43,656 bases of DNA, taken from NCBI GenBank assembly GCA_937951625.1, contig CALFBP010000032.1:1-43656 (forward strand), read 5' to 3'. Of the stretch, positions 3,359 through 40,013 are shown piece after piece; position 1 is the first letter of the stretch; each line of letters starts with the position of its first letter. The position numbers and the translations under genes are program-made. The DNA is from an uncultured Thermoguttaceae bacterium (GTDB taxonomy: Bacteria; Planctomycetota; Planctomycetia; Pirellulales; Thermoguttaceae). The notes beneath the pieces are model-generated. The model saw nothing but the letters and a program-made list of their open reading frames with translations, was not told the DNA's origin and did not search any database.

Positions 3359-4495
3359 ATGAACTCCCCGTCGCCATCGTCGGTTGTCATTTTGCGTTTC
3401 TCTCTTGGCCTTGTGCTGGGTGTTCTGATTGTTTCGAGTGTCTTGACTGGGTGCGACCGTTCGAACAGTGTGGCGACGGACCCTCGTGGAACTAAAGCAC
3501 TCTCGTTACTGAATGTCTCCTACGATCCTACCCGAGAACTTTATGCAGAGGTCAACCGCCAATTCTCCGCCCACTGGCGGGCTACCACCGGACAAGAGGT
3601 GTCGATACGGATGTCGCACGGGGGGTCGGGCAAACAGGCCCGGGCGGTGATCGACGGGCTGGAGGCCGACGTGGTAACCTTGGCCTTGGCCTACGACATC
3701 GATTCCATTGCGCTCCATAGCGGTTTGATCGCCCCGGATTGGCAGCATCGCTTCCCTCACAACAGCGCTCCGTACACGTCGACCATCGTCTTTCTAGTTC
3801 GCAAGGGCAACCCGAAAGGGATCAAGGATTGGGGCGACCTGGTCAAACCGGATGTCGCGGTCATCACCCCCAATCCGAAAAGCTCGGGCGGAGCACGATG
3901 GAACTACCTGGCGGCCTGGGGATACGTATTGAAGCGGGAACTGGGCGATCTGAAAAAGCTGCGCGAGCCTAAGCCCGCCGAAGATGTGGCCAATGCCCAG
4001 CTCAAGGCCCGGCAGTTCCTTACCGAGTTGTTTCGCAGGGTTCCTGTACTGGATTCCGGCGCTCGGGGCGCCACCATGACATTTGTGCAGCGGGGGATTG
4101 GGGATGTTTTGTTGTCTTGGGAAAACGAGGCGTTTCTAGCCGTCCACGAATTGGGCAAGGATCAAATCGAGATCATTGTGCCCTCCATAAGTATCCTCGC
4201 AGAGCCTTCGGTGGCGGTGGTGGATACGGTGGTTGATAGGCGGGGAACCCGCCAGGTGGCGGAAGCCTACCTCCAGTATCTTTACTCCCCAGCCGGTCAG
4301 GCCGCGGCAGCCCAACACTTCTATCGTCCCCGCGATGCAAGCGCCGTGCCCGTAGAACTGCTTCGGCGATTCCCCAAATTGGAGCTATTCACGGTGGACG
4401 AAGCGTTCGGTGGCTGGCAGAAGGCCCAGCGCGAACATTTTGATGACGGCGGGGTGTTTGATGCGATTTCTAAGCCGCGTCTGTCAGAGCCTTAG
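3359..4495 (+). CDS. sbp: Sulfate-binding lipoprotein of ABC transporter
   Basis: This 378-residue extracytoplasmic solute-binding protein begins with a hydrophobic signal ending in a lipobox (VLTGC, Cys near residue 32), so it is probably lipid-anchored. Both hallmarks of the sulfate-binding family are present: [15 protein letters not shown] after the signal, and [19 protein letters not shown] in the middle. The family delivers sulfate (or thiosulfate) to the CysTWA permease. It is the first gene of a four-gene operon and starts 120 nt after the predicted sigma-54 start. The Shine-Dalgarno before ATG 3359 is weak. Specificity between sulfate and thiosulfate cannot be told from sequence. Confidence 0.94.
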
Positions 4496-4542
4496 GAGAG
4501 AGTTCGGTCCTGTTGAACCCCCTGGCGCGTCGCGGAGAGAAC

Positions 4543-5376
4543 ATGCGATTGGCTTTAAAACGACATGGGGTGCTGCCCGGCTTTGGTCTGACGCTGGGGT
4601 TGACGCTTTCGTATCTCAGTGTCGTGGTGCTGCTCCCCCTGACCGCGCTTTTGCTGAAGGCGGCGCGGGCCGACCTCGGGCAATTGTGGGGGGCAGTATC
4701 CGACCCGCGTGTCGTCGCTTCCTACCGGCTGAGTTTCGGGGCGTCGTTGGCGGGGGCTTTGGTCAACGCGGTGTTTGGGCTGGTCGTGGCCTGGGTCTTG
4801 GTCCGCTACACGTTCCCAGGAAAACGCTTGCTCGACGCCTTGGTCGATCTCCCCTTCGCCATGCCGACCGCAGTTTCCGGAATCACGCTCACAACCCTCT
4901 ACGCGCCGAACGGGTGGATCGGCAAATGGTTCGCAAACGCGGGAATTCCCGTCGCTTACACCCCCCTAGGCGTTACGGTGGCGTTGATCTTCACCGGCTT
5001 GCCCTTCGTGGTTCGCACCGTGCAGCCGGCAATCGCGGACCTGGAGGCGGAAGTCGAAGAAGCAGCCGCTAGCCTTGGGGCCAGTCGATGGCAGACGTTT
5101 TGGCGGGTAATCCTGCCATCGATCCTGCCGGCGCTTTTGACGGGGTTCGCCCTGGCCTTTGCCCGCGGCTTGGGCGAGTACGGTTCCGTAGTTTTCATCT
5201 CCGGAAACATGCCCATGAAGACCGAGATCGCTCCCTTGTTGATTGTGACGAAATTGGAGCAGTACGACATGGTCGGGGCCTGCGCGATCGCCCTGGTGAT
5301 GCTCGGAGTGTCGTTTTTGTTTTTGCTGGCGATCAACGGGTTGCAGTGGTGGAGCCGGCGGTACGCGATGTCGTGA
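4543..5376 (+). CDS. cysT: Sulfate ABC transporter permease CysT/CysU
   Basis: This 277-residue integral membrane protein has about six hydrophobic segments. It carries the permease EAA loop EEAAASLGASRWQTFWRVILP, which docks onto the CysA ATPase, followed by the GLGEYGSVVFISGN signature of sulfate permeases. I chose ATG 4543 because CGGAGAGA lies just upstream. An in-frame TTG at 4513 would add ten residues. It begins 47 bp after sbp and pairs with CysW to form the heterodimeric channel. Confidence 0.93.
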   Translation: MRLALKRHGVLPGFGLTLGLTLSYLSVVVLLPLTALLLKAARADLGQLWGAVSDPRVVASYRLSFGASLAGALVNAVFGLVVAWVLVRYTFPGKRLLDALVDLPFAMPTAVSGITLTTLYAPNGWIGKWFANAGIPVAYTPLGVTVALIFTGLPFVVRTVQPAIADLEAEVEEAAASLGASRWQTFWRVILPSILPALLTGFALAFARGLGEYGSVVFISGNMPMKTEIAPLLIVTKLEQYDMVGACAIALVMLGVSFLFLLAINGLQWWSRRYAMS

Positions 5377-5503
5377 AAGGGCGAGGGTTCACAAAACGGT
5401 TTCCGGCAGGCATCGCCAGGAGCCCAACGGGCGTTGGCGGACGTGTGTCGGCGACTTGCGTCCCTGTGCTGTGGAACAACAGAATTCGAGTCCGAGTGTA
5501 GGT

Positions 5504-6394
5504 ATGTTGATCGGCGGTGGCGTCCCCTCTGCGCTGACCGGTTTTTCGGCGTCGTCGGCGGTAACCGCCGAGCGACCGGTGGTCCGATGGGCGTTGATCG
5601 GGGTGGCAATCGTTTTTCTCGGGCTGTTCCTGGTCATTCCCCTGATCGCAGTCTTCCTCCAGGCCTTTGAGAAAGGGATCGCGGCCTACTTCCGCGCGCT
5701 ATTGGATCCCGACACCCAATCGGCCGTGCGTCTGACCTTGCTGGTGGCTGCCGTGGCCGTGCCGCTGAATACGGTGTTTGGGGTGGTCGCGGCCTGGGCC
5801 ATCACGAAGTTCGAGTTTGCGGGCAAGAACGCGCTGATCACCCTGATCGACCTGCCCTTCAGCATCTCGCCGGTGGTAGCCGGGCTGGTTTTCGTGTTTT
5901 TGTTCGGTCGTCAGGGTTGGTTGGGGCCGTGGTTGGAGGCCCACGGGGTGCGCGTGATTTTTGCCGTGCCGGGCATGGTCCTGGCGACCGTCTTCGTCAC
6001 ATTCCCCTTTGTGGCCCGCGAGCTGATCCCGCTCATGAAGGCCCAAGGAACCGAGGAAGAAGAAGCGGCCCGATTGCTCGGCGCCAGCGGCTGGCAGACG
6101 TTTTGGCGGGTCACGCTGCCGAACATCAAATGGGGGCTACTGTATGGGATCGTTTTATGCAACGGTCGGGCGATGGGCGAGTTCGGCGCGGTGTCCGTCG
6201 TTTCCGGGCACGTCCGCGGGCAAACCAACACCATCCCGCTGCACGTGGAGATTCTCTACAACGAGTACAACGTGGCGGCGGCCTTCGCCGTGGCCTCGCT
6301 GTTGGCGACCCTCGCGCTGGCGACGTTGGCCCTCAAGTCGCTTCTGGAGTGGAAAGTCGCTCGACAATTGGCGGAAACCGACGCAAAACCATGA
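5504..6394 (+). CDS. cysW: Sulfate ABC transporter permease CysW
   Basis: This 296-residue permease is homologous to the preceding gene. It has several transmembrane segments and the EAA loop [22 protein letters not shown], then [20 protein letters not shown], typical of CysW. ATG 5504 is preferred; an in-frame TTG at 5456 would add 16 residues that look unlike membrane-protein N-termini. The 127-bp gap after cysT is long for this operon and shows no terminator. The stop codon overlaps an ATG (ATGA at 6391) in frame with cysA. Confidence 0.93.
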
Positions 6395-6492
6395 CCAACG
6401 ACCCGGTAGAACCTGCCGCGCAAGCCGAGCGGGCAGCGGCTTGCTCGCGCCCGCGTCATGGCGACGCGAACCGGCAGTCAGGAGAATCCCCC

Positions 6493-7563
6493 ATGAGCAT
6501 CGTCGTAGAAAACATCAGCAAGACGTTTGGCCAGTTCGTGGCCTTGCGGAACGTCAGCCTGAGCGTGGCCAGGGGTGAACTGATTGCCTTGCTGGGGCCT
6601 TCGGGTTCGGGTAAAACCACCCTCTTGCGGATCATGGCCGGTTTGGAAAAGCCCGATCCTGGCAGCGGTCCCATTCGCTTCGAGGACGAGGACGTTGCTA
6701 GCCGAAACCCGCAGGTCCGTCACGTGGGCTTCGTCTTCCAACACTACGCTTTGTTCCGACACATGACCGTGGCGGAAAACGTGGCCTTCGGTCTCCGCGT
6801 GCGACCGCGACGCCTGCGGCCAAGCCGATCCGAGATTCGCCAGCGGGTGCAAAAGCTCTTGAAGCTTGTACAGCTCGATGCCTTCGCCAACCGCTATCCG
6901 AGCCAGCTTTCCGGCGGCCAGCGTCAGCGCGTGGCTTTGGCCCGAGCCTTGGCCATCGAACCTAAGGTACTTTTGCTGGACGAACCATTCGGGGCCCTGG
7001 ACGCCAAGGTCCGCATGGAGCTTCGCCAATGGCTCCGCCGTTTGCACGACGAGATCCACGTCACCAGCGTCTTCGTCACCCACGATCAGGACGAGGCCCT
7101 GGAATTGGCCGACCGCGTGGTGGTCATGAATCAGGGCCGCATCGAACAGATCGGAACACCGGACGAAGTGTTTCATTCCCCAGCGACGGAATTCGTGACG
7201 ACCTTCCTTGGACAGGTGAACCTGTTTCACGGTCGGGTGGAAAATGGCAAGGTGCATTTCGCCACGCTCGCCTGGGACTCGCCCGAACATGCGGCGATGC
7301 CCTCTCAACCGGTGCGGGTCTTTGTGCGGCCGCACGATTTCCATGTCGCGTCGCACCGCAACGGCGCGCCGGCCTTCCGCGCCACCGTGCGCCGCGTGCA
7401 TTCGGCTGGGCCGAATGCACGGCTGGAACTGGTGGCCGAGTCCGGCGAGTCGCTTTGGGTCGAAATGCCGCTGGACGTGTGCCGGGCCCGCAACATCGTC
7501 CAAGGAAGCCCTGTGTTCCTCACCCCGCGCGACGTCAAGGTCTTCGCCGAGAGTCCGCACTGA
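6493..7563 (+). CDS. cysA: Sulfate ABC transporter ATP-binding protein
   Basis: This 356-residue ATPase has Walker [10 protein letters not shown], the Q-loop VFQHYALF, signature LSGGQRQR, Walker [12 protein letters not shown], the switch histidine in [10 protein letters not shown], and a C-terminal TOBE-like regulatory region (FVRPHDFHV). It powers CysTW by ATP hydrolysis on the cytoplasmic side. ATG 6493 has a good Shine-Dalgarno (GGAGA) at the right spacing and begins as CysA proteins usually do ([13 protein letters not shown]). An earlier in-frame ATG at 6391 overlaps the cysW stop and would add 34 Ala/Arg-rich residues. I regard that as less likely, though it could serve translational coupling. 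Confidence 0.95.
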
Positions 7564-7875: not shown

Positions 7876-10800
7876 ATGCTATTTGGTGTTAGTGGAAATC
7901 GTCGCAACATCCATTTTGGTTTTTGTATCCTAGCGTTTGCAGGAATATGGTGGGCGGTGTCGGACGGGTCGGTCTTCCCCGCGGAAGCGGCAGGTGGCTC
8001 CGCGCCGTCCAGCACCAGCGGTTCCCCGACGCTTCCGTCGTTGGAGAAGGCCTCATGGATTTGGAGCGATCCGAAAGACGAGATCTGCCAGCTTCGCACG
8101 GTGGTGCAGCTCGACGAGGCCCCCAGCGCCGCCAGTATTCTGATCACCGCCGACAATGGCTATGAGCTTTACGTCAACGGGGCGGAAGTAGGCTTCGACA
8201 TTGGAGCGGAAGGCGAGGTCTGGAGTTCGGTGGAGCGTTTCGACCTCGCTTCGCGGTTGACGCGGGGCAAAAACGTAATCGGCATTCGGGGCACGGACCT
8301 CGGCGGGATTCGCGGCTTGGTGGCTGCGGTGCGGATCGAGTTCCCCAATCATCCTCCGCGGGAAATCGTCACCGACGCCTCATGGCGTGCGGCCGCCGAG
8401 GGCGATCCCGTGCAGTACTCGCATCCCGAATTCGTCGAAGGGCCTGAGTGGACCGCTGCCACGGTGGTCGGTCCGATGGGGATGGCGCCGTGGGGCAAGC
8501 TGTCCTATAGCGGATCGACGGGAGGACGCCGCCCCCGGTCTATGCACGCCTCGCTCGTCTTGACCCAACCGGATGAGAACTTCCGTTGGCCCGAGGAAGT
8601 GATTTTCCTCGGCGACGATTGCAGTGTCTATGTCCCGTTTCGGGCCGACGCCTGGGGCGTGTGCTTTCGCATCAACGATTGGTCCCGAGCCTATACCGAG
8701 TTCGATCTGCCTTGTCCCGTGAAGATCGGTCGCAAACTGTATGCCCTCAAACCAGGACCCGATGCCAAACCGCGTTTGCTCCTCGACGCTGGCAAGGGCG
8801 CGATCGGCTCGCCGAGCGTCAGCCATGACGGTCGATGGATCTATATCTCGATGGCTTGGAATGGAGATCCTTTCTACCACATCTATCGGCTTCCGGCCGA
8901 AGGCGGCTCGCCTGAACGACTTACCGACGGTCCCTTCCACGACATCGATCCCGCCGAATTGCCCGACGGCAGGATCGTGTTCGCCTCGACGCGAATCGGG
9001 TCGTTCGAGGAATACCACAATCCGCCTTCGCGGGCACTATACGTGATGAACCCGGATGGCAGCCAGATTCGGCCCATCACCTACACCTTGATCTTCGACA
9101 ATGAACCGAAGGTGATGGCGGACGGGCGCATCATATTTGTGCGGACCGACAACTTCTTCGACCGCGCCAAGGTGGAAACGCAACTCCACGTGATCCGGCC
9201 CGACGGCACCGGCGGGCATACCGAGTTTGGAGCCGACGTGGGAGCGGATTACGGTTGGCGTCTGCGTGCGTTGGGTTATGGCAGTCCGGCTCCTCTGCCC
9301 GACGGCAGGGTCGCCTTCATCTCCACGCGGGGCAATTTCATCGCTGCGCCAGGAAGCGCGGAGCACACCTACCAAGCTTTGCCTGGCGGCCTAGGTGATT
9401 TGTCGGCCATGCCCGACGGTCGCCTCTTGGCTACGGTGCTTCATCCTTCGGCGAGGCAACAACAGTCCACCGTTTTGACGGTCTTGGAACCGCACGACAA
9501 TCGGCTTGTAACCATCTATCGGTCGCCCGACGGCCCCATCCACTCGCCAGTATTCCTCGGTCCGCGACCGAGGCCCTCGGTCATTCCCGACCAAGTGGAC
9601 CCCAAGTTGGGCGGCGTACCCGAGGCCACGGGATTCCTTCATTGCCAAAACGTCCGCTTCACCACCAAGATAAAGGCCGACTGGCGGCAGGTTCGCGCAA
9701 TCCGTGTTTTAGGGGCCAAACCGCTGACCACGCGTTCCTCCCACTCGCACATCGTTCACGCCGGCCACGAGACGATGGAGCTGGGCACCGTGCCATTGGC
9801 GCCGGATGGTTCCTTTTCGGTCGAGGTGCCCGCCGACATTCCGCTCATGCTTCAGGCCGTGGACGCCGAGGGCCGATCGGAACTTAACGAAATGTCGTGG
9901 ATTTACGTGCGGCCGGGCGAACAGCGGACCTGCTTGGGATGTCATCATCCCCGCGGCGCGGCCCCATTTGCAGAGGGCCGGCAAGCACAATCGTCGAAAA
10001 TTCGCCCGCTCCGCCTGCTCGGAGAGGGACAGACGCATCGCTTCCGGGGCAACAACTCCGGTGTGTCCGGGATGATGGACCTTCAGTTCGAGCGATTCCG
10101 GGAAGTGGCCTCTTTGAACCGTTTCGCCGAGAATCCCGATCCCTTGGCGACGGGCAAACAGGAGGTGGCCCTGCAAATTGCGCATCTGAGCGGCAACGAC
10201 AAGAACTTGAAAATCTCGGCGGCGCAACGCCTGGCGATTTTTCGGGACCGAGCCGCGGCCCCGACTTTGGCGGAGCGGCTCAGCGATGGGAACCGCGAGG
10301 TTCGTGTGGCCGCTGCCCTGGCTTTAGCCACCTGCGGTACGCGCCAGAGCGTGCCCGCCCTGCTTGACGCCCTGGAGGACCGCGATCCGCTCGTGGCGCA
10401 AGCCGCCGCCGTGGCCCTAGAGAATCTCACCGCCCACGCCGAACCCTTCGATCCGTTCCTGCCATTGACACGCCGAAAAACACAGGCCGACGCATGGCGG
10501 GCATGGTTCCGAGCCAATTCGTGGGAGGACATCGAGCGGGAACTCATCCAGCGGATCGGGGCGGCCGATCGGGTGGATCAACGTCGGGCCCTCGTGGCCT
10601 TGGGGCACGTTGGCGGCGACTCGGCCCGTAACGCCCTCCGCCAATTCGTCGCCACCGAAAAGGATAAGAACCCTTATCCACCCTTCGAAAACGACAATCG
10701 CACCGACTCGTTCACGTACCCGGCCGATTCGCCCTTCAATCCTCGAACGCTTCAGGAGGCCGTGAGGGCCATCGGCTATTTGGGCGACTCCAACGCTGTA

Positions 10801-11904
10801 CCGCTACTGCAAGAGATTCTCAATCAAAACATCGAGCCGCGGACGGCCAATTTGTACCTTGCCGAGGCGGCCGTCGAAGCGTTGGGGTGGATCGGCACCC
10901 CCGAGGCCGAGACCGTCTTGATCGAAACCTTCGCCAAGTTGAAGAACTATTGGGAGTACGTGGGCTGGTACAGCGACCACCCAGCCTTGTACGCTTGCCA
11001 CAGCTCCCCCGTGCACGCACGGATCATCATGGCCTTGGATTGGATCGGATCGACGCGCGCCGGGCCGATCGCCCCGCATCTCATTCGATCCATCCCCACC
11101 GATCCCGACCGGGCCTTGTTCCCGCAAAACGACGACTACGAGACGTTGGTCGGCCGTGTCTTGCGGCGGAGTGGCCGGGCCGAGGCGATCATCGAGACTT
11201 GTTTCAGTCTGCTGGGCGATCCCCCGTCGGCTGATTCCCGGAGCGACAAGCCCGCTCCACCAGATGAGTTGCGCGAAGCCATCAGCACCACGTTCGCTGC
11301 GTGGGCGGGCAAACCAGCGCCGGACAATCGGGCAGCGCAAGTCCTCTCATTGATTTGCCGCGACCGGCGTTACGAGCCCCGCGTGCGCGCGGCTTACGAG
11401 CGTTATCGAGCCATGCCCGAGGACGCCATCCTCCGGCCCCTGGGCAACCCCGATTGGATTCCTCAACGCCATTGGGTCTTGTTCTACCTCGGCCGAGCAC
11501 TGGGCAATCTGGGCGCCGAGGACTCCGTGGATACGCTCCTGGCATCCCTGCGGCCGGAGCTGAACGAGGCACGACACGGGCGTCCCGATCCAGCAGAGCC
11601 GAATGTCCACTTCCTCCATCTGGAGTACACGCCATGTTGGCGGGTGACGGCGGCTTGGGCCTTGGGGCGCATCGGCCAACGCCGCGCGGGTGCTACGTTG
11701 CTCAACGTGATCGGTGATTTGAACAACGCGACCGACGTCCGCCACGCGGCTGCCGAGGCCCTCCCGTCGCTTCGCGATCCAACGCTCCTGGAATCGATGA
11801 AACGCTTAGCCAACGATTATCCGGAACACTCGGTCCGCAAGGCCCTGCTTCGCGGATGCGCCGCGTTGGCCGAGCCTTCGGCGGGCATGGTCACGGCACG
11901 TTGA
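7876..11904 (+). CDS. Exported beta-propeller/CxxCH/HEAT-repeat protein (hydrazine-synthase-alpha-like region)
   Basis: This 1342-residue protein starts with a signal peptide (about 1-39, ending AEAAGG), supported by GGGGAG before ATG 7876. Residues about 50-200 resemble a jelly-roll carbohydrate-binding fold (ASWIW, LYVNGAEVG). Residues about 250-600 are TolB/PD40-type propeller blades (LTDGPFHDIDPAELPDGRI, YVMNPDGSQIRPIT). Around 615-690 comes the region characteristic of hydrazine-synthase-alpha-like planctomycete proteins (FSVEVPADIPLMLQAVD), closing with a single c-type heme motif CLGCH (686-690). The rest, about 780-1340, consists of HEAT repeats. It is likely periplasmic. Similar proteins are widespread in planctomycetes that do not do anammox, so hydrazine synthesis should not be inferred. 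Substrate and partners are unknown. Confidence 0.85.
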   Translation: MLFGVSGNRRNIHFGFCILAFAGIWWAVSDGSVFPAEAAGGSAPSSTSGSPTLPSLEKASWIWSDPKDEICQLRTVVQLDEAPSAASILITADNGYELYVNGAEVGFDIGAEGEVWSSVERFDLASRLTRGKNVIGIRGTDLGGIRGLVAAVRIEFPNHPPREIVTDASWRAAAEGDPVQYSHPEFVEGPEWTAATVVGPMGMAPWGKLSYSGSTGGRRPRSMHASLVLTQPDENFRWPEEVIFLGDDCSVYVPFRADAWGVCFRINDWSRAYTEFDLPCPVKIGRKLYALKPGPDAKPRLLLDAGKGAIGSPSVSHDGRWIYISMAWNGDPFYHIYRLPAEGGSPERLTDGPFHDIDPAELPDGRIVFASTRIGSFEEYHNPPSRALYVMNPDGSQIRPITYTLIFDNEPKVMADGRIIFVRTDNFFDRAKVETQLHVIRPDGTGGHTEFGADVGADYGWRLRALGYGSPAPLPDGRVAFISTRGNFIAAPGSAEHTYQALPGGLGDLSAMPDGRLLATVLHPSARQQQSTVLTVLEPHDNRLVTIYRSPDGPIHSPVFLGPRPRPSVIPDQVDPKLGGVPEATGFLHCQNVRFTTKIKADWRQVRAIRVLGAKPLTTRSSHSHIVHAGHETMELGTVPLAPDGSFSVEVPADIPLMLQAVDAEGRSELNEMSWIYVRPGEQRTCLGCHHPRGAAPFAEGRQAQSSKIRPLRLLGEGQTHRFRGNNSGVSGMMDLQFERFREVASLNRFAENPDPLATGKQEVALQIAHLSGNDKNLKISAAQRLAIFRDRAAAPTLAERLSDGNREVRVAAALALATCGTRQSVPALLDALEDRDPLVAQAAAVALENLTAHAEPFDPFLPLTRRKTQADAWRAWFRANSWEDIERELIQRIGAADRVDQRRALVALGHVGGDSARNALRQFVATEKDKNPYPPFENDNRTDSFTYPADSPFNPRTLQEAVRAIGYLGDSNAVPLLQEILNQNIEPRTANLYLAEAAVEALGWIGTPEAETVLIETFAKLKNYWEYVGWYSDHPALYACHSSPVHARIIMALDWIGSTRAGPIAPHLIRSIPTDPDRALFPQNDDYETLVGRVLRRSGRAEAIIETCFSLLGDPPSADSRSDKPAPPDELREAISTTFAAWAGKPAPDNRAAQVLSLICRDRRYEPRVRAAYERYRAMPEDAILRPLGNPDWIPQRHWVLFYLGRALGNLGAEDSVDTLLASLRPELNEARHGRPDPAEPNVHFLHLEYTPCWRVTAAWALGRIGQRRAGATLLNVIGDLNNATDVRHAAAEALPSLRDPTLLESMKRLANDYPEHSVRKALLRGCAALAEPSAGMVTAR

Positions 11905-28368: not shown

Positions 28369-28448
28369 GCTTGGCTTAAGCTGTTGCAGCAGTGGCTGGT
28401 TTACCAAACGGTTCTTTAACAACTTTGTTTGAGAATGGGGAGAGTGGA

Positions 28449-31088
28449 ATGACTGGAAACGCGAGTTCGGGAGGCAGAAACGGGGCATGGAGGCCGCGGC
28501 GCCGGCGGGGATCGACCGCCTTGTTGACGGTAGCCGTGGTGGGAATGCTGGCAGTCCTGGGCTGGCTCCAGTTCCACCCCCCAGTGGCTGGCGTCGAGGC
28601 GGCGCCTTCGGCCTCCCATGCCGTCGGTGCGGAGTCCAGCGGCGTGAAGCTCTTCGAGCCGCTCGTGGACGCAAAATACAGCATTTGGGAAAGGATCGCC
28701 CTGATCACCAACGTGGTGATCGCGGTGGCAGGGCTGATCTACGCCGTGATGTTGGTCGGCGAAGTCAAAAACGCGGACCAGGGCACGCCGCGGATGCAGG
28801 AAATCGCCCAGGCGGTCCGCGAGGGCGCCAACGCCTACCTCTTCCGACAATTTCGCGTGGTCGGCGTGCTGATCGTGGTGATCACTGCCCTGTTGTACTT
28901 CGCGGCCAAAGCGGCGAACTCGGAAGAGGCGATTGCCTTGGGTCGGGCGATTGCCTTCTTCATCGGTTCGACGTTTTCGGCAACCGTCGGATTCGTGGGC
29001 ATGCGCATGGCCACAGTCGGCAATCTCCGCGTGGCTGCGGCTGCCCGGGAAAGTTTCGGCAAGGCGCTACAGCTTGGCTACCGCACGGGCACGATCACGG
29101 GAATGCTCACCGACGGCCTGGGACTGCTTGGCGGCTCGCTCATCTTCCTAGTCTATGGCGAACACGCTTACGAGGCCCTCTTGGGCTTCGGCTTTGGCGG
29201 CACGCTGTTGGCGTTGTTCATGCGCGTCGGCGGCGGCATTTACACCAAAGCGGCCGACGTGGGCGCCGACCTGGTGGGTAAGATCGAGGCCGGCATTCCA
29301 GAGGACGATCCCCGCAACGCCGCCACCATCGCTGATAACGTGGGCGACAACGTGGGCGACTGCGCGGGAATGGCTGCCGATATCTTCGAGAGCTACGAGG
29401 TGACCATCGTGGCCGCCATGATCCTCGGCATCGCCAGCTTCGGCCACAAGGGCGTGATTTTCCCCTTGCTCGTCCGCGCCATCGGCGTGGTGGCGAGCAT
29501 CATCAGCACTTACACGGTTCGGGCAGGCGACAAGGGCACCGCCGCCGAGGCCATGAAGGGCGTGAACCGCGGCTTCGTGATCGGCTCGATTTTGAGCATC
29601 GCCGGGTTCATCCTTTTAGGCCTCGTCTATCTGCACTTCGACGCCGCCTATTTGGCAGCCTATCCGCAGTCCGCGGCCGGGTTCCCCGGCGCCACGCCCG
29701 AGGCCGCCGCCGCTGGGCTGCCGTGGTGGGCCAATTTCGGTTTCGGCGGTCTCGACATGCGCCCGGCTTGGACTTGCTTGATCGGCATCATCCTTGCCGT
29801 GTGCCTCAACAAATGCACTGAATACTACACCGGAACCGAATTCGAACCGGTCAAGAGCCTGGCCAAGTCCTGCTCGACCGGCCATGCCACGAACATCATC
29901 CAGGGGTTCGCCGTGGGCTACGAAAGCACGGTGGCCGCCGTGTTGATCATTGCCGCGGCGATCATGTGTAGTGCCTTGATCTACGCGGGTACCAATCCCA
30001 CGTTCGTCGCCTTTGGTGTGGCCATGTGCGGCATCGGCATGCTGACGTTGACCGGCAACACGATCTCGATGGACGTGTTCGGGCCCGTGGCCGACAACGC
30101 CAACGGCATCGGCGAGATGGGCTACGATAAGGATCAGATGGGCGAGGAAACCTACAAGACCGCTCGCCAAACCCTGGCCGACCTGGACGCAGTGGGCAAC
30201 ACCACCAAGGCCATCACCAAGGGAATCGCCATCGGTTCCGCGGTGATCGCCGCCGTGTCGCTGTTCAACAGTTTCATCGTTTCGGTCGGCTCGGCGGGTG
30301 GGGGTGAGACGGCTCGGGTGGCCAAGGAAGTCTACGACGCCGTGGCCTCCATGCTCACCGTCTCCGATCCCACACTCTTCATCGGCATGTTGATCGGCGG
30401 CGCCGTGCCGTTCTTGTTCAGTTCGATGACGATCCGGGCAGTAGGCCGCGCGGCCTACCTGATCGTCAAGGAAGTCCGCGTTCAGTTCAAAGACAAGGCC
30501 ATTTGGGAAGGGACGAAAAAGCCCGACTATGGCCGCGTGGTCAGCATCTGCACCGCCGCCGCCCAGAAGGAACTCGTTGGGCCCGGCCTGCTGGCCTTGT
30601 TTGTCCCCATGCTGGTCGGGTTCATTTTGGGCGTCGTGGCCCTGGCCGGGTTCCTAGCCGGGATGATCGTGGTCGGCCAGCTCCTGGCCGTGTTCATGGC
30701 GAACGCGGGCGGGGCCTGGGACAACGCCAAGAAGACCATCGAGGACGAACCCCGACAGCCCGAGCAGAACCTCGGCAAGGGCAGCGAACGCCACAAGGCA
30801 AGCGTCACCGGCGATACGGTGGGCGACCCCTTGAAGGACACCGCCGGCCCGGCCATCAACCCCCTGATCAAGGTGATGAACATGGTCAGTTTGCTGATCA
30901 TCGGCCTGATCCTTCCCTACGACAGAGGCGTCGTGGAGAAGCTTCAGAATCTTGGGGTTCGGGAGGCCGCCCAGAAGCCTCTCGACATGTTGTTCTGGGG
31001 GGTGGTTATCGTTGCCATCCTGGGATTGGTTTGGTCTGTCTGGCAATCGAAACGCGAAACGCCCGAGATGCAAGAATCGCAGCAATAG
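28449..31088 (+). CDS. hppA: K+-independent proton-translocating pyrophosphatase
   Basis: This 879-residue membrane protein couples hydrolysis of pyrophosphate to proton pumping. Pyrophosphate- and Mg-binding motifs are intact: DNVGDNVGDCAGMAAD near 296, the FGPVADNANGI segment near 543, and the C-terminal TGDTVGDPLKDTAGPAIN. The determinant segment reads GNTTKAIT, with Lys and Thr at the two diagnostic positions, which marks the K+-independent, H+-pumping class. It has about 16 membrane segments plus an extra N-terminal one (residues about 23-40) and a linker, making it longer than usual. ATG 28449 has GGGGAGA upstream. It is monocistronic, with a strong promoter and a strong terminator. Confidence 0.95.
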   Translation: MTGNASSGGRNGAWRPRRRRGSTALLTVAVVGMLAVLGWLQFHPPVAGVEAAPSASHAVGAESSGVKLFEPLVDAKYSIWERIALITNVVIAVAGLIYAVMLVGEVKNADQGTPRMQEIAQAVREGANAYLFRQFRVVGVLIVVITALLYFAAKAANSEEAIALGRAIAFFIGSTFSATVGFVGMRMATVGNLRVAAAARESFGKALQLGYRTGTITGMLTDGLGLLGGSLIFLVYGEHAYEALLGFGFGGTLLALFMRVGGGIYTKAADVGADLVGKIEAGIPEDDPRNAATIADNVGDNVGDCAGMAADIFESYEVTIVAAMILGIASFGHKGVIFPLLVRAIGVVASIISTYTVRAGDKGTAAEAMKGVNRGFVIGSILSIAGFILLGLVYLHFDAAYLAAYPQSAAGFPGATPEAAAAGLPWWANFGFGGLDMRPAWTCLIGIILAVCLNKCTEYYTGTEFEPVKSLAKSCSTGHATNIIQGFAVGYESTVAAVLIIAAAIMCSALIYAGTNPTFVAFGVAMCGIGMLTLTGNTISMDVFGPVADNANGIGEMGYDKDQMGEETYKTARQTLADLDAVGNTTKAITKGIAIGSAVIAAVSLFNSFIVSVGSAGGGETARVAKEVYDAVASMLTVSDPTLFIGMLIGGAVPFLFSSMTIRAVGRAAYLIVKEVRVQFKDKAIWEGTKKPDYGRVVSICTAAAQKELVGPGLLALFVPMLVGFILGVVALAGFLAGMIVVGQLLAVFMANAGGAWDNAKKTIEDEPRQPEQNLGKGSERHKASVTGDTVGDPLKDTAGPAINPLIKVMNMVSLLIIGLILPYDRGVVEKLQNLGVREAAQKPLDMLFWGVVIVAILGLVWSVWQSKRETPEMQESQQ

Positions 31089-36687: not shown

Positions 36688-38334
36688 TTAGAAGTCGCCC
36701 ATGCCGCCCATCTCGCCATGGTGACCGCCCGGCCCGGGTTTGCTGTCTTCTTCCTTCGGGATTTCCGTCACCAGGCACGAGGTGGTCAGCAGTAGGCTGG
36801 CGACGCTGGCGGCATTTTGCAGGGCGACGCGGACCACCTTGGCCGGATCGATGACGCCCGCCTCGATCAGGTCGCAGTACTCATCCCGCTCCGCGTCGTA
36901 GCCGTCGCCTTTGCCTTTCATCTGCCGGACTCGGCTGACGACCACCGCCCCATCACGGCCCGCGTTCTCCGCAATGTGGTACAACGGCGACTCCAGGGCC
37001 TGAAGCACGATCTTGGCGCCCAAGGCCTCGTCGCCGTTGAGTTCGAGCTTCTCAATCGCCTTGGCGCTGCGGAGCAGGGCGACGCCGCCACCGGGAACGA
37101 TGCCCTCTTCCAGAGCAGCCTTGGTGGCGGCGCGGGCGTCCTCGAGCAGGAACTTGCGCTCCTTCATTTCGGTCTCCGTCGCCGCGCCCACGTTGATTTG
37201 GGCCACGCCGCCGGCGAGCTTGGCCAGCCGCTCTTCCAGTTTTTCGCGGTCGTAATCGCTGGTGGTGGTTTTGATTTCAGCGCGAATCTGCTCGGCACGG
37301 CCCTCGATCGCCTTCTTATCGCCCGCCCCGCCGATGATCGTGGTATTGTCGGCGTCGACGACAACCTTCTTGGCGCTGCCTAAGTCGCTGAGCTTGACCG
37401 ATTCAAGCTGCACGCCCAGGTCTTTGAAGATCGGCTGTCCGCCGGTGAGGATGGCGATGTCACCGAGCATGGCCTTGCGGCGGTCCCCATAGCCCGGCGC
37501 TTTCACGGCGCACACGTTGAGGATGCCGCGGAGCTTGTTGACCACCAGGGTTGCCAGGGCTTCGCCCTCGACATCTTCGGCGATGATCAACAGCGGCTTG
37601 CCGGCCTTGCTGACCGCCTCCAAAAGCGGGATCAGGGCCTTGGCGCTGGAGATTTTTTCCTCATGCACCAGCACGAGGCACTTCTCCAACTCGCAAACCT
37701 GGGTTTCAGGATTCGTGACGAAGTGGGGCGAGAGGAACCCTCGGTCGAATTGCATGCCCTCGACCACTTCCACCGTGGTCTCGGCTTGCTTTCCTTCCTC
37801 GACGGTGATCACCCCATTCTTGCCCACCTTCATGAAGGCCTCGGCCAGCGTGGCCCCGATCTGCGGATCGCCATTGCCGGCGATGGTGGCGATTTGGGTG
37901 ATTTCCTTCTTATTCTTGTCGTCGATGGGCATGGCCATCTTCTTGATCGCGGCGACCACGGCCTCGGTCGCCTTATGGATGCCGCGAGATAAGGCCATGG
38001 GGTCGGCCCCGGCCGCGATCATTTTCATCCCTTGTTTGAAGATCGCCTCGGCAAGCACGGTGGCCGTGGTCGTGCCGTCGCCGGCAACCTCATTGGTCTT
38101 GCTGGCGGCTTCCTTGACCAATTTGGCGCCCAGATTCTCGTTGGGGTCCTCCAAGTCGATGTCTTCGGCGACCGTCACCCCGTCTTTAGTAATCTTGGGC
38201 GAACCCCAGCCTTTATCCAGCACCGCATTGCGGCCGCGCGGACCCAGCGTACTGCACACGGCCCGGGCCAGCTTGCCGACGCCCGCGGCCAGCGCCTGCC
38301 GGGCATCGTCTTCATAAATCATCTTTTTTGCCAC
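36688..38334 (-). CDS. groEL: Chaperonin GroEL, first copy (GGM tail)
   Basis: This 548-residue Hsp60 has the ATP-binding and hydrolysis motifs ([39 protein letters not shown]) and a C-terminal [13 protein letters not shown] tail typical of housekeeping GroEL. The start is GTG 38334, with a near-perfect AGGAGGAATT upstream. It is the first gene of groEL-groES-groEL. A consensus sigma-54 promoter and a leader hairpin lie upstream, instead of a CIRCE element or a clear heat-shock promoter. Confidence 0.96.
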
Positions 38335-38498: not shown

Positions 38499-38732
38499 GA
38501 TTTAGATTTACCATCGTAAGATATTGCGAGTGATCGACTTACATCCCCAATTCAACGTCTGTTGCGTGATTGCTTCGGGAAAGCGGACCGCCGGCTGTGC
38601 CAAATTGGCAGAAAACGCTCGCCGTGTTCTTTGGTCCGCACGCATTTCGGCCCCCAGTTGTTGACCAGCGGGGAGGCAGCTAGGATAAGCCTTTCGGGGG
38701 TTATTGCTTCTAATCGCTTGGTATCTCTTCCC

Positions 38733-40013
38733 ATGCCTCGTCGCAATTTCTGGCTTCTGACGGCTCTCTTGGTGGTATGCCTGGCGTGCCACGTTCGGGC
38801 GAACCGGCATGGCCAGGTTTTTAGTTACGCCTTGGAACAGGTCTTCCATCGCTCGTTGGAACCGATCAGCCGTCGTGCCTTACTGGAAGGCGCCCTCGAC
38901 GGCATGATGGCAGAGCTGGATGACCAGCACTCGCTTTACATCCGGCCTCAGGTCGTGGAGAAGCTCCGTCAGACGCTGGACGCGAAATTCGCCGGAGTGG
39001 GCTTGGAGATTGTGCTCGATCCGGTGACCAAGCAGATCACCGTGGCTTCCCCGCTGTTTGGCGCCCCGGCCTACGAGGCGGGCGTGCGGTCGCGCGACAA
39101 AATCCTCCGCATCGATGGCCAAAGCACCCAGGGCCTCTCCCTGGAGGATGCCTCGAACTTGATGCGGGGCAAGCCCGGCACCGCCGTCGTGCTGACCGTG
39201 CTCCACGAAGGCGAAACCGAGCCGGTCGACATCCGCATCGTCCGCGCCGACATCCGCGTCGCCACCGTGCTTGGCGACACGCGGAACGCCGACGGCTCGT
39301 GGAACTATTTCCTCGAAGGGCAGGACCGCATCGGCTACGTGCGGATCCACAGTTTCGCCGAACAGACCGCCGAGGAGCTCGAACGCGTGGTCCGCAAGCT
39401 GTTGGCTGAAAACATGCGCGGATTGGTCCTCGACCTCCGCGACGATCCCGGCGGCGTGCTCCAAGTGGCGGTCAGCGTTTGCGACCTGTTCATCCCGTCC
39501 GGCGTGATCGTGACGACCCGCTCCCGCGACGGCGCCGTGCGGCAGAGCTTCGAGTCCACCGCGGAGGGCACGCTTCCGGATTTCCCTCTGGCCGTGATCG
39601 TGAACAATTTTAGCGCCAGCGCCAGCGAGATCGTGGCGGCCTGCCTCCAGGACCACGGCCGGGCAGTGATTGTCGGCGAGCGGACGTTCGGCAAAGGCAC
39701 CGTACAAGAAATCGTGGATCTGCCCGGCAATGAAGGGGCACTCAAGGTGACCACGGCCAGCTACTGGCGCCCCAGCGGCCGGAACATCAATCGCGCCAAG
39801 AACGCCACCGATCAGGACGAATGGGGGGTGACGCCCGACCCCGGCTACGAAGTCAAGCTCGAAGCCGAGGCCTTGGCGCGGCTGGTGCGGTGGCGTCACG
39901 AACGGGGAATGTCGCGTCGCTCCAGTGCGACCGAACCGCTTGCCTCCGCGCTGCCCACCCAAGTCGATCCGCAATTGGCCAAGGCCGTCGAGTATCTGAA
40001 TGCTCCACGGTGA
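38733..40013 (+). CDS. C-terminal processing protease, S41 family with PDZ domain
   Basis: This 426-residue protease has a signal peptide (about 1-22, LLVVCLACHVRA). An N-terminal helical segment with LDDQHSLYIRP follows, then a PDZ domain (about 75-155, SPLFGAPAYEAGVRSRDKIL). The S41 catalytic domain has LVLDLRDDPGG, the serine motif NNFSASASE and the lysine motif GERTFGKGTVQ, so the Ser-Lys dyad is intact. It is likely periplasmic and trims the C-termini of exported proteins. ATG 38733 is chosen because the signal peptide begins there. The frame is open upstream to 38562 without support. It is divergent from groE, which may link envelope proteolysis to folding. Confidence 0.92.
   Translation: MPRRNFWLLTALLVVCLACHVRANRHGQVFSYALEQVFHRSLEPISRRALLEGALDGMMAELDDQHSLYIRPQVVEKLRQTLDAKFAGVGLEIVLDPVTKQITVASPLFGAPAYEAGVRSRDKILRIDGQSTQGLSLEDASNLMRGKPGTAVVLTVLHEGETEPVDIRIVRADIRVATVLGDTRNADGSWNYFLEGQDRIGYVRIHSFAEQTAEELERVVRKLLAENMRGLVLDLRDDPGGVLQVAVSVCDLFIPSGVIVTTRSRDGAVRQSFESTAEGTLPDFPLAVIVNNFSASASEIVAACLQDHGRAVIVGERTFGKGTVQEIVDLPGNEGALKVTTASYWRPSGRNINRAKNATDQDEWGVTPDPGYEVKLEAEALARLVRWRHERGMSRRSSATEPLASALPTQVDPQLAKAVEYLNAPR

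Follow-up and report, generated by a model that had tools for sequence, protein, structure and literature searches.

Homologues of the alpha subunit of hydrazine synthase (HZS) are known outside anammox and have been divided into clades I-IV by Hagglund et al. (2025, PMC12758564); according to that paper, some genomes carry such a homologue co-located with a beta-gamma homologue. In HZS itself the histidine of the heme alpha-I motif and alpha-Cys303 bind zinc and alpha-Tyr591 ligates the heme (PMC12607021 and PMC12758564). Hagglund et al. (PMC12758564) report no protein of other proven function among the top structural matches to HZS alpha. Another group of heme proteins to be considered is that of the planctomycete-specific cytochromes (PSCyt), which occur with Bac_rhamnosid_N, NPCBM or F5/8C domains and have sulfatase genes nearby, as described in PMC5615132. 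Here we analyze a gene of an uncultured Thermoguttaceae bacterium carried by contig CALFBP010000032.1, the whole 43,656 nucleotides of which are called the window. The gene is a single open reading frame (ORF) on the forward strand (7876-11904; 1342 codons and a stop, with an ATG start preceded by a purine-rich stretch) and encodes an exported HZS-alpha-like putative heme protein with HEAT repeats, hereafter HEAT-alpha. We put at about even the chances that HEAT-alpha is the exported, heme-carrying alpha-type subunit of a redox complex that resembles hydrazine synthase and does not make hydrazine.

The 1342-residue protein begins with an apparent Sec-type signal peptide recognized by eye (residues 1 to about 39, 7876-7992; a hydrophobic stretch followed by FPAEAA), and all the features of this protein are encoded on the forward strand. 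The signal peptide is followed by a galactose-binding-like beta-sandwich domain (residues 55-210, 8038-8505) that matches the lectin chains 6t0q, 6t1d and 6kbj of the PDB with values of about 4e-20 to 7e-20. Bac_rhamnosid_N is matched below cut-off in this front domain (0.0025 in the window protein, 4.3e-5 in the homologue at locus L013 and 1.2e-4 in that at L051). In a model of residues 38-760 the front domain is mostly beta, and lectin chains are absent among the matches listed for this model, which are filled by propellers. Next come a PD40 beta-propeller (residues about 232-564 with approximate ends, 8569-9567; 1.8e-10 in the Pfam scan, and model matches to the propellers of HZS alpha and TolB) and the HZS_alpha middle domain, PF18582 (residues 632-690, 9769-9945). 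The latter is matched at 1.1e-15 with 58.4 bits against a curated cut-off of 26.6, the match covering positions 39-97 only of the 98 of the profile. The last approximately 580 residues form a HEAT-repeat array (residues about 760-1342, 10153-11901) matched by HEAT_2, HEAT_PBS and HEAT, with HEAT_2 reaching 2.7e-32 across four stretches, and seen in the model as a run of paired helices.

To compare HEAT-alpha with hydrazine synthase we used as reference the alpha subunit of Kuenenia stuttgartiensis HZS (PDB 5C2V, chain 5c2v_A) together with the families PF18582 and NF052339. A sequence search linked residues 636-692 to 5c2v_A, with which PF18582 is aligned. A profile of 12 sequences (three HEAT-alpha and nine paralogues) matched 5c2v_A at 1.7e-59 in three stretches, namely the propeller, the middle domain and the heme alpha-II region, the last of which comes from the paralogue rows only. 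An AlphaFold model of residues 215-1328, built with 25 sequences (predicted local distance difference test, pLDDT, 77; predicted template modelling score, pTM, 0.81), had 5c2v_A as its best match both in Foldseek (1.7e-14) and in VIA (Z 27.2, 449 residues aligned, root mean square deviation 4.2). The next VIA match was a TolB propeller (Z 25.8 over 254 residues), and the other 49 matches listed aligned 240-267 residues against the 449 of 5c2v_A. Chain 5c2v_A again came first with the residues 38-760 model (Z 26.5 over 425 residues), which is weak (pLDDT 65.7, pTM 0.53). Taken together, the alignments and the predicted structures show residues 232-690, approximately, to be equivalent to the HZS-alpha propeller and middle domain with an alpha-I type CxxCH. 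They likewise show a HEAT array in the place of the cytochrome domain of heme alpha-II, which HEAT-alpha lacks. An earlier note, made from the DNA alone, had described a 1342-residue secreted protein with a binding domain, a PD40-type propeller, HEAT repeats and a single CLGCH closing an HZS-alpha-like segment, and had proposed comparing a predicted structure with HZS alpha. All of this is borne out, with one amendment: the likeness to HZS alpha is real, and the segment was drawn too narrowly since it spans the propeller as well as the middle domain.

The sole CxxCH of HEAT-alpha is CLGCH (residues 686-690, 9931-9945), the closing residues of the HZS_alpha domain, which align with the CSGCH of the heme alpha-I site of 5c2v_A. 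When the protein sequence was shuffled 5000 times, a CxxCH arose in 0.4% of the copies. Scanning a GTDB-based genome collection led to the identification of 25 loci, of which 24 (L009-L032) were kept as orthologues. The 25th, L033, was dropped because it matched residues 55-209 of the front domain only. The orthologues are 59-70% identical to HEAT-alpha over all or part of the protein, and all extend over the CxxCH as well as the position where a second heme motif would lie. Each of the 24 has exactly one CxxCH, at the same site. Distant homologues in related genomes (38-54% identity over all or part) retain it in 5/5 (L051-L055) and 4/4 (L120-L123) loci, so that the motif is kept in all 33 homologous loci that cover the site and persists down to about 38-41% identity. 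L117, which does not cover the site, was left out of this count, as were L048-L050, which equal L010, L011 and L016 in length and identity. Both HZS_alpha and HEAT are kept in L051, L052 and L054, the three distant homologues scanned for them. Past the motif lies the linker RGNNSGVSGMMDLQFERFREVA (residues 724-745, 10045-10110), near the site of the second heme motif of the paralogues and near-invariant in close orthologues; its GMMD was not found in L051-L055. Conserved residues of the close orthologues that are candidate distal heme ligands are M733, M734, H623, H628 and H381. The source genome also has CcsA-type and ResB-type genes for system II heme attachment. The earlier note had named conservation of the motif and co-occurrence with c-type maturation genes among its checks. 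From the motif, the apparent export signal and the attachment genes we infer that HEAT-alpha is a putative c-type heme protein.

The HZS_alpha family is expanded in the source genome (4.6 Mb), which encodes 14 PF18582 proteins, HEAT-alpha included. The other 13 carry at least two CxxCH, the second lying 50-65 residues past the first in the stretch aligned with the alpha-II domain. A single CxxCH is thus unusual for the HZS_alpha family. The 13 paralogues have the CxGCH form of the motif with a PD40-type propeller and HZS_alpha, and none has a HEAT family match (Pfam at 0.001), one of them, the second on contig C90, running off the contig end so that its C-terminus was not covered by the scan. 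One paralogue, at locus L095 on contig C68, is an HZS-alpha homologue with two hemes that scores 175 bits with NF052339. It is encoded at 4288-7446 on the minus strand near a beta-gamma homologue with ten CxxCH (9019-11082, minus strand), an arrangement that resembles the clade I layout of Hagglund et al. Separately, a C-terminal FGE-sulfatase (formylglycine-generating enzyme-like) domain is fused to an HZS_alpha heme protein both in the source genome (L098, 830-4846, plus strand) and, elsewhere, upstream of an orthologue (L027, 1-3990, plus strand).

HEAT-alpha is rare. At E 1e-150 it was found in 7/60 related genomes and in 5/392 genomes of the phylum, the source genome being included in both counts; the genomes of the phylum sample were at least 80% complete and two candidates were scored per genome in the matches listed. 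By record title the 24 orthologous loci belong to Planctomycetota, Verrucomicrobia, Hydrogenedentota and a few other labels, and since they are metagenome bins, many sharing the sample prefix CSSed, some labels may be binning errors. Rarity combined with high identity suggests that the gene may have spread horizontally. A tree was built from the cores of 34 sequences, namely HEAT-alpha of the window, 15 of its 24 orthologues, the 13 paralogues and five neighbours; in it a long branch with support 1.00 lies between the 16 sequences of HEAT-alpha type and the remaining 18.

We then compared the residues on which hydrazine synthase depends. The place of alpha-Tyr591, four residues past the motif histidine, is occupied by Gly in the window protein and by R, E, Q, T, H, D or S in the orthologues, none of the 24 having Tyr. 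No conserved Cys is found at the place of alpha-Cys303, around residues 452-454 of the window protein, when Cys303 is taken as the Cys of GNC in 5c2v_A (chain position plus 27, the motif His being 587). Cys303 is absent in Scalinduaceae too, according to PMC12758564. The NF052339 equivalog model gives 32.6 bits against a cut-off of 800. HEAT-alpha shares the fold of true HZS alpha and lacks alpha-Tyr591, Cys303, the second CxxCH and nearby beta and gamma genes. For want of alpha-Tyr591, alpha-Cys303 and a heme alpha-II domain it is not filed as a hydrazine synthase. Since the HZS-specific Tyr ligand and the zinc-binding Cys are absent, a canonical His-ligated heme would be expected, as Hagglund et al. 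argue for a Syntrophobacter homologue (PMC12758564). A separate observation concerns EYHNP (residues 379-383, 9010-9024), the counterpart of EFHNP in the alignment with HZS alpha. Of the 24 orthologues, 21 cover this stretch; all 21 retain YH and six retain NP. In 17 of 18 other members of the family a Cys stands where the window protein has Y380. This Cys was rejected as an equivalent of alpha-Cys303, which the alignment with 5c2v_A puts elsewhere.

A Pfam scan of 20 window ORFs and a search for CxxCH revealed neither a beta or gamma subunit gene nor a gene for a partner cytochrome in the window. The earlier statement that no partner cytochrome genes are nearby therefore holds for the window and not for the family: clustering of flank ORFs identified one protein family directly downstream of HEAT-alpha in L013, L015, L023 and L030. 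The gap after the last sense codon of the alpha gene is 13 bases in L013 and six in L023; in L015 and L030 the longest downstream open frame overlaps the alpha end and its start is approximate. The L013 member matches CCP_MauG and Cytochrom_C, 5c2v_B at 1.7e-31 and 5c2v_C at 2.2e-25, and the L013 and L030 members match the NCBIfam model of the HZS beta-gamma fusion with approximately 171 bits. All four proteins have two CxxCH. The Cys that forms the third heme bond in HZS gamma is absent from L013 and was not seen at its place in L015, L023 and L030. The gamma-His144 place, counted from the chain for L013 and taken from the alignment for the others, holds Trp in L013, L015, L030 and a gene on contig C23 of the source genome, and Ala in L023 and in the gene on C72. 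The beta-gamma side thus looks, by its residues, more MauG/CCP-like than HZS-like in three of the four adjacent members, and a MauG-type Trp was dropped as a deciding feature in view of the Ala in L023 and C72. The source genome has four beta-gamma-like genes, on C23, C72, C88 and C68, and those on C23, C72 and C88 (L092-L094) are di-heme genes on contigs with no PF18582 match. Further HZS_alpha-type genes are close to HEAT-alpha in L013, L027, L030 and L032.

HEAT-alpha probably belongs to a redox complex of the cell envelope; the redox or scaffold role in the periplasm suggested earlier is a reasonable one, and overall the earlier observation is confirmed and its interpretation partly supported. 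In such a complex, system II would attach one c-type heme at C686/C689 with H690 as an ordinary proximal ligand, and, like heme alpha-I in HZS, the heme would do its work at its own site or close by. Electrons or oxidising equivalents would come from a separate beta-gamma-like protein made of a propeller and a MauG/CCP-type di-heme part. The front domain may tether the complex to carbohydrate, a sulfated glycan being a guess from sulfatases neighbouring the gene at two loci, and the HEAT array may dock a partner or a polymer.

Several points weigh against this reading. The heme is putative, deduced from its motif, whose flank is modelled with low confidence (pLDDT below 50 just past CLGCH). 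The Z score of HZS alpha is just 1.4 above that of the TolB propellers, and the propeller supplies most of it. The approximately 171 bits of the L013 and L030 proteins compare with a cut-off of 1250. Adjacency of the alpha and beta-gamma genes is confined to one subclade of four loci; no member of the downstream family was found in nine further loci whose downstream DNA spans 4 kb or more (L009, L010, L012, L016, L019, L021, L025, L029 and L032), and none of the four beta-gamma-like genes of the source genome is on the window contig. Beta-gamma proteins (E 1e-120) occur in 24/60 relatives, in 6/7 genomes with HEAT-alpha versus 18/53 without (Fisher p 0.013), an association that is weak and kinship-confounded since the statistic takes no account of kinship or genome size. 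Genomes lacking HEAT-alpha have beta-gamma proteins that are just as close (51-54% identity), and one genome, G035 (84% complete), has HEAT-alpha and no beta-gamma protein at 1e-120. Co-occurrence was consequently rejected as proof of partnership, being not specific. The proposed carbohydrate role is deduced from domain likeness and two sulfatase-linked loci.

A bolder version, which we regard as a long shot, is that HEAT-alpha and the beta-gamma-like di-heme protein form an undescribed two-subunit enzyme on the hydrazine synthase plan. The MauG-type unit would make a reactive intermediate that passes to the alpha-I type heme, where a sugar-polymer substrate would be held by the galactose-binding and HEAT domains. 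If true, this would reveal the task that the hydrazine synthase architecture had in the time before anammox.

The first alternative, which we hold to be unlikely, is that HEAT-alpha is a stand-alone extracellular protein that binds glycan and serves as a mono-heme oxidoreductase or electron relay, like the planctomycete-specific cytochromes with carbohydrate-binding modules, the beta-gamma genes being unrelated. Several paralogues in the genome have F5/8C, Laminin_G_3 (LamG) or NPCBM domains, which favours this explanation, as do the neighbours of the orthologues: a sulfatase and an FAD oxidoreductase adjoin the gene in L029 and their relatives occur in L010, a GH2 protein is among the neighbours in L019, and PQQ_2 propeller proteins lie near the L013 and L014 orthologues. 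PSCyt with sugar-binding domains near sulfatase genes (PMC5615132) provide a precedent. However, a beta-gamma-like gene directly downstream in four loci speaks against a protein acting alone, and the Pfam scan found no glycan-active catalytic domain in HEAT-alpha.

A second alternative, rather improbable in our judgement, is that HEAT-alpha is a scaffold with a vestigial or merely structural heme and that the HEAT array is the working part. Residues 861-1342 are matched at 1e-6 in eight of the 60 relatives, namely the seven genomes with HEAT-alpha and one with a weak match (3e-8). The approximately 580 HEAT residues contain a conserved patch, YVGWYSDHPALYACHSSPVHAR (residues 1028-1049, 10957-11022), which is mostly invariant in close orthologues, W1031, D1034, H1035, Y1039, H1042 and H1047 being invariant in the 21 covering sequences, the window protein included. 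These observations and the missing second heme motif argue for a scaffold. Against it, propeller residues are highly conserved, and the CxxCH is kept at about 38-41% identity while YxGWYSDH of the patch was not found in L051-L055. A patch conserved in close orthologues and not found in these distant loci would be in keeping with a binding surface that changes from clade to clade. Finally, a real hydrazine synthase alpha subunit or other N-N forming enzyme is hardly credible and already contradicted, because the fold, the alpha-I motif and the EYHNP/EFHNP alignment that speak for it are outweighed by the absence of alpha-Tyr591, a conserved alpha-Cys303 and the alpha-II heme, by the low NF052339 score and by a beta-gamma partner with no third heme cysteine.

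Upstream of HEAT-alpha the window encodes a sulfate-type ATP-binding cassette (ABC) transporter (3359-7563), and downstream ScpB and rpe. At a tblastn threshold of 1e-5, ten window genes around HEAT-alpha, these among them, were unmatched in the 24 orthologous loci, several of which have little flank, and the local gene context is consequently not informative. A sulfate theme joining the sulfatases at L010 and L029 to the sulfate transporter of the window was considered too thin and set aside. Among window ORFs of at least 100 codons, CxxCH is otherwise present only in an ORF antisense to a longer ORF and in an S41 C-terminal processing peptidase ORF (38538-40010, plus strand), the CLACH of which is perhaps outside the true protein. 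The window also encodes a proton-pumping pyrophosphatase (28392-31088) and GroEL (36688-38334).

How does HEAT-alpha compare with known systems? Like K. stuttgartiensis HZS alpha it has a TolB/PD40-type propeller, a middle domain and an alpha-I CxxCH in the same order; unlike it, it has gained a HEAT array and a galactose-binding-like domain and has no alpha-Tyr591, alpha-Cys303 or heme alpha-II. With the 13 paralogues it shares the propeller, HZS_alpha and CxGCH, and many of them have sugar-binding-type accessory domains; they differ in their second CxxCH, in having no HEAT match and in falling outside the HEAT-alpha clade of the tree. PSCyt1-3 are likewise proteins of PVC bacteria in which CxxCH is combined with sugar-binding domains, and sulfatases are often close by (PMC5615132), whereas their heme and accessory (PSD) domains are different and no PSCyt domain is among the nine Pfam families that match HEAT-alpha at E up to 1. 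HZS-alpha homologues outside anammox have been described before, as has their co-location with beta-gamma genes (PMC12758564); a form fused to HEAT repeats and carrying a single heme did not turn up in our literature search, which covered open-licence papers, and the available text of PMC12758564 contains no mention of HEAT repeats for HZS-alpha homologues that we could find. A rare, highly conserved single-heme form with an adjacent di-heme partner gene in some genomes provides a compact pair to purify, and this pair would reveal what chemistry the hydrazine synthase plan supports besides hydrazine making. As described in PMC12758564, the homologues of clades I-IV also keep the HZS_alpha domain and the alpha-I site, with Tyr591 and Cys303 missing in clades I-III; loss of alpha-II goes with a shorter protein in clades II and III and with a longer one in HEAT-alpha.

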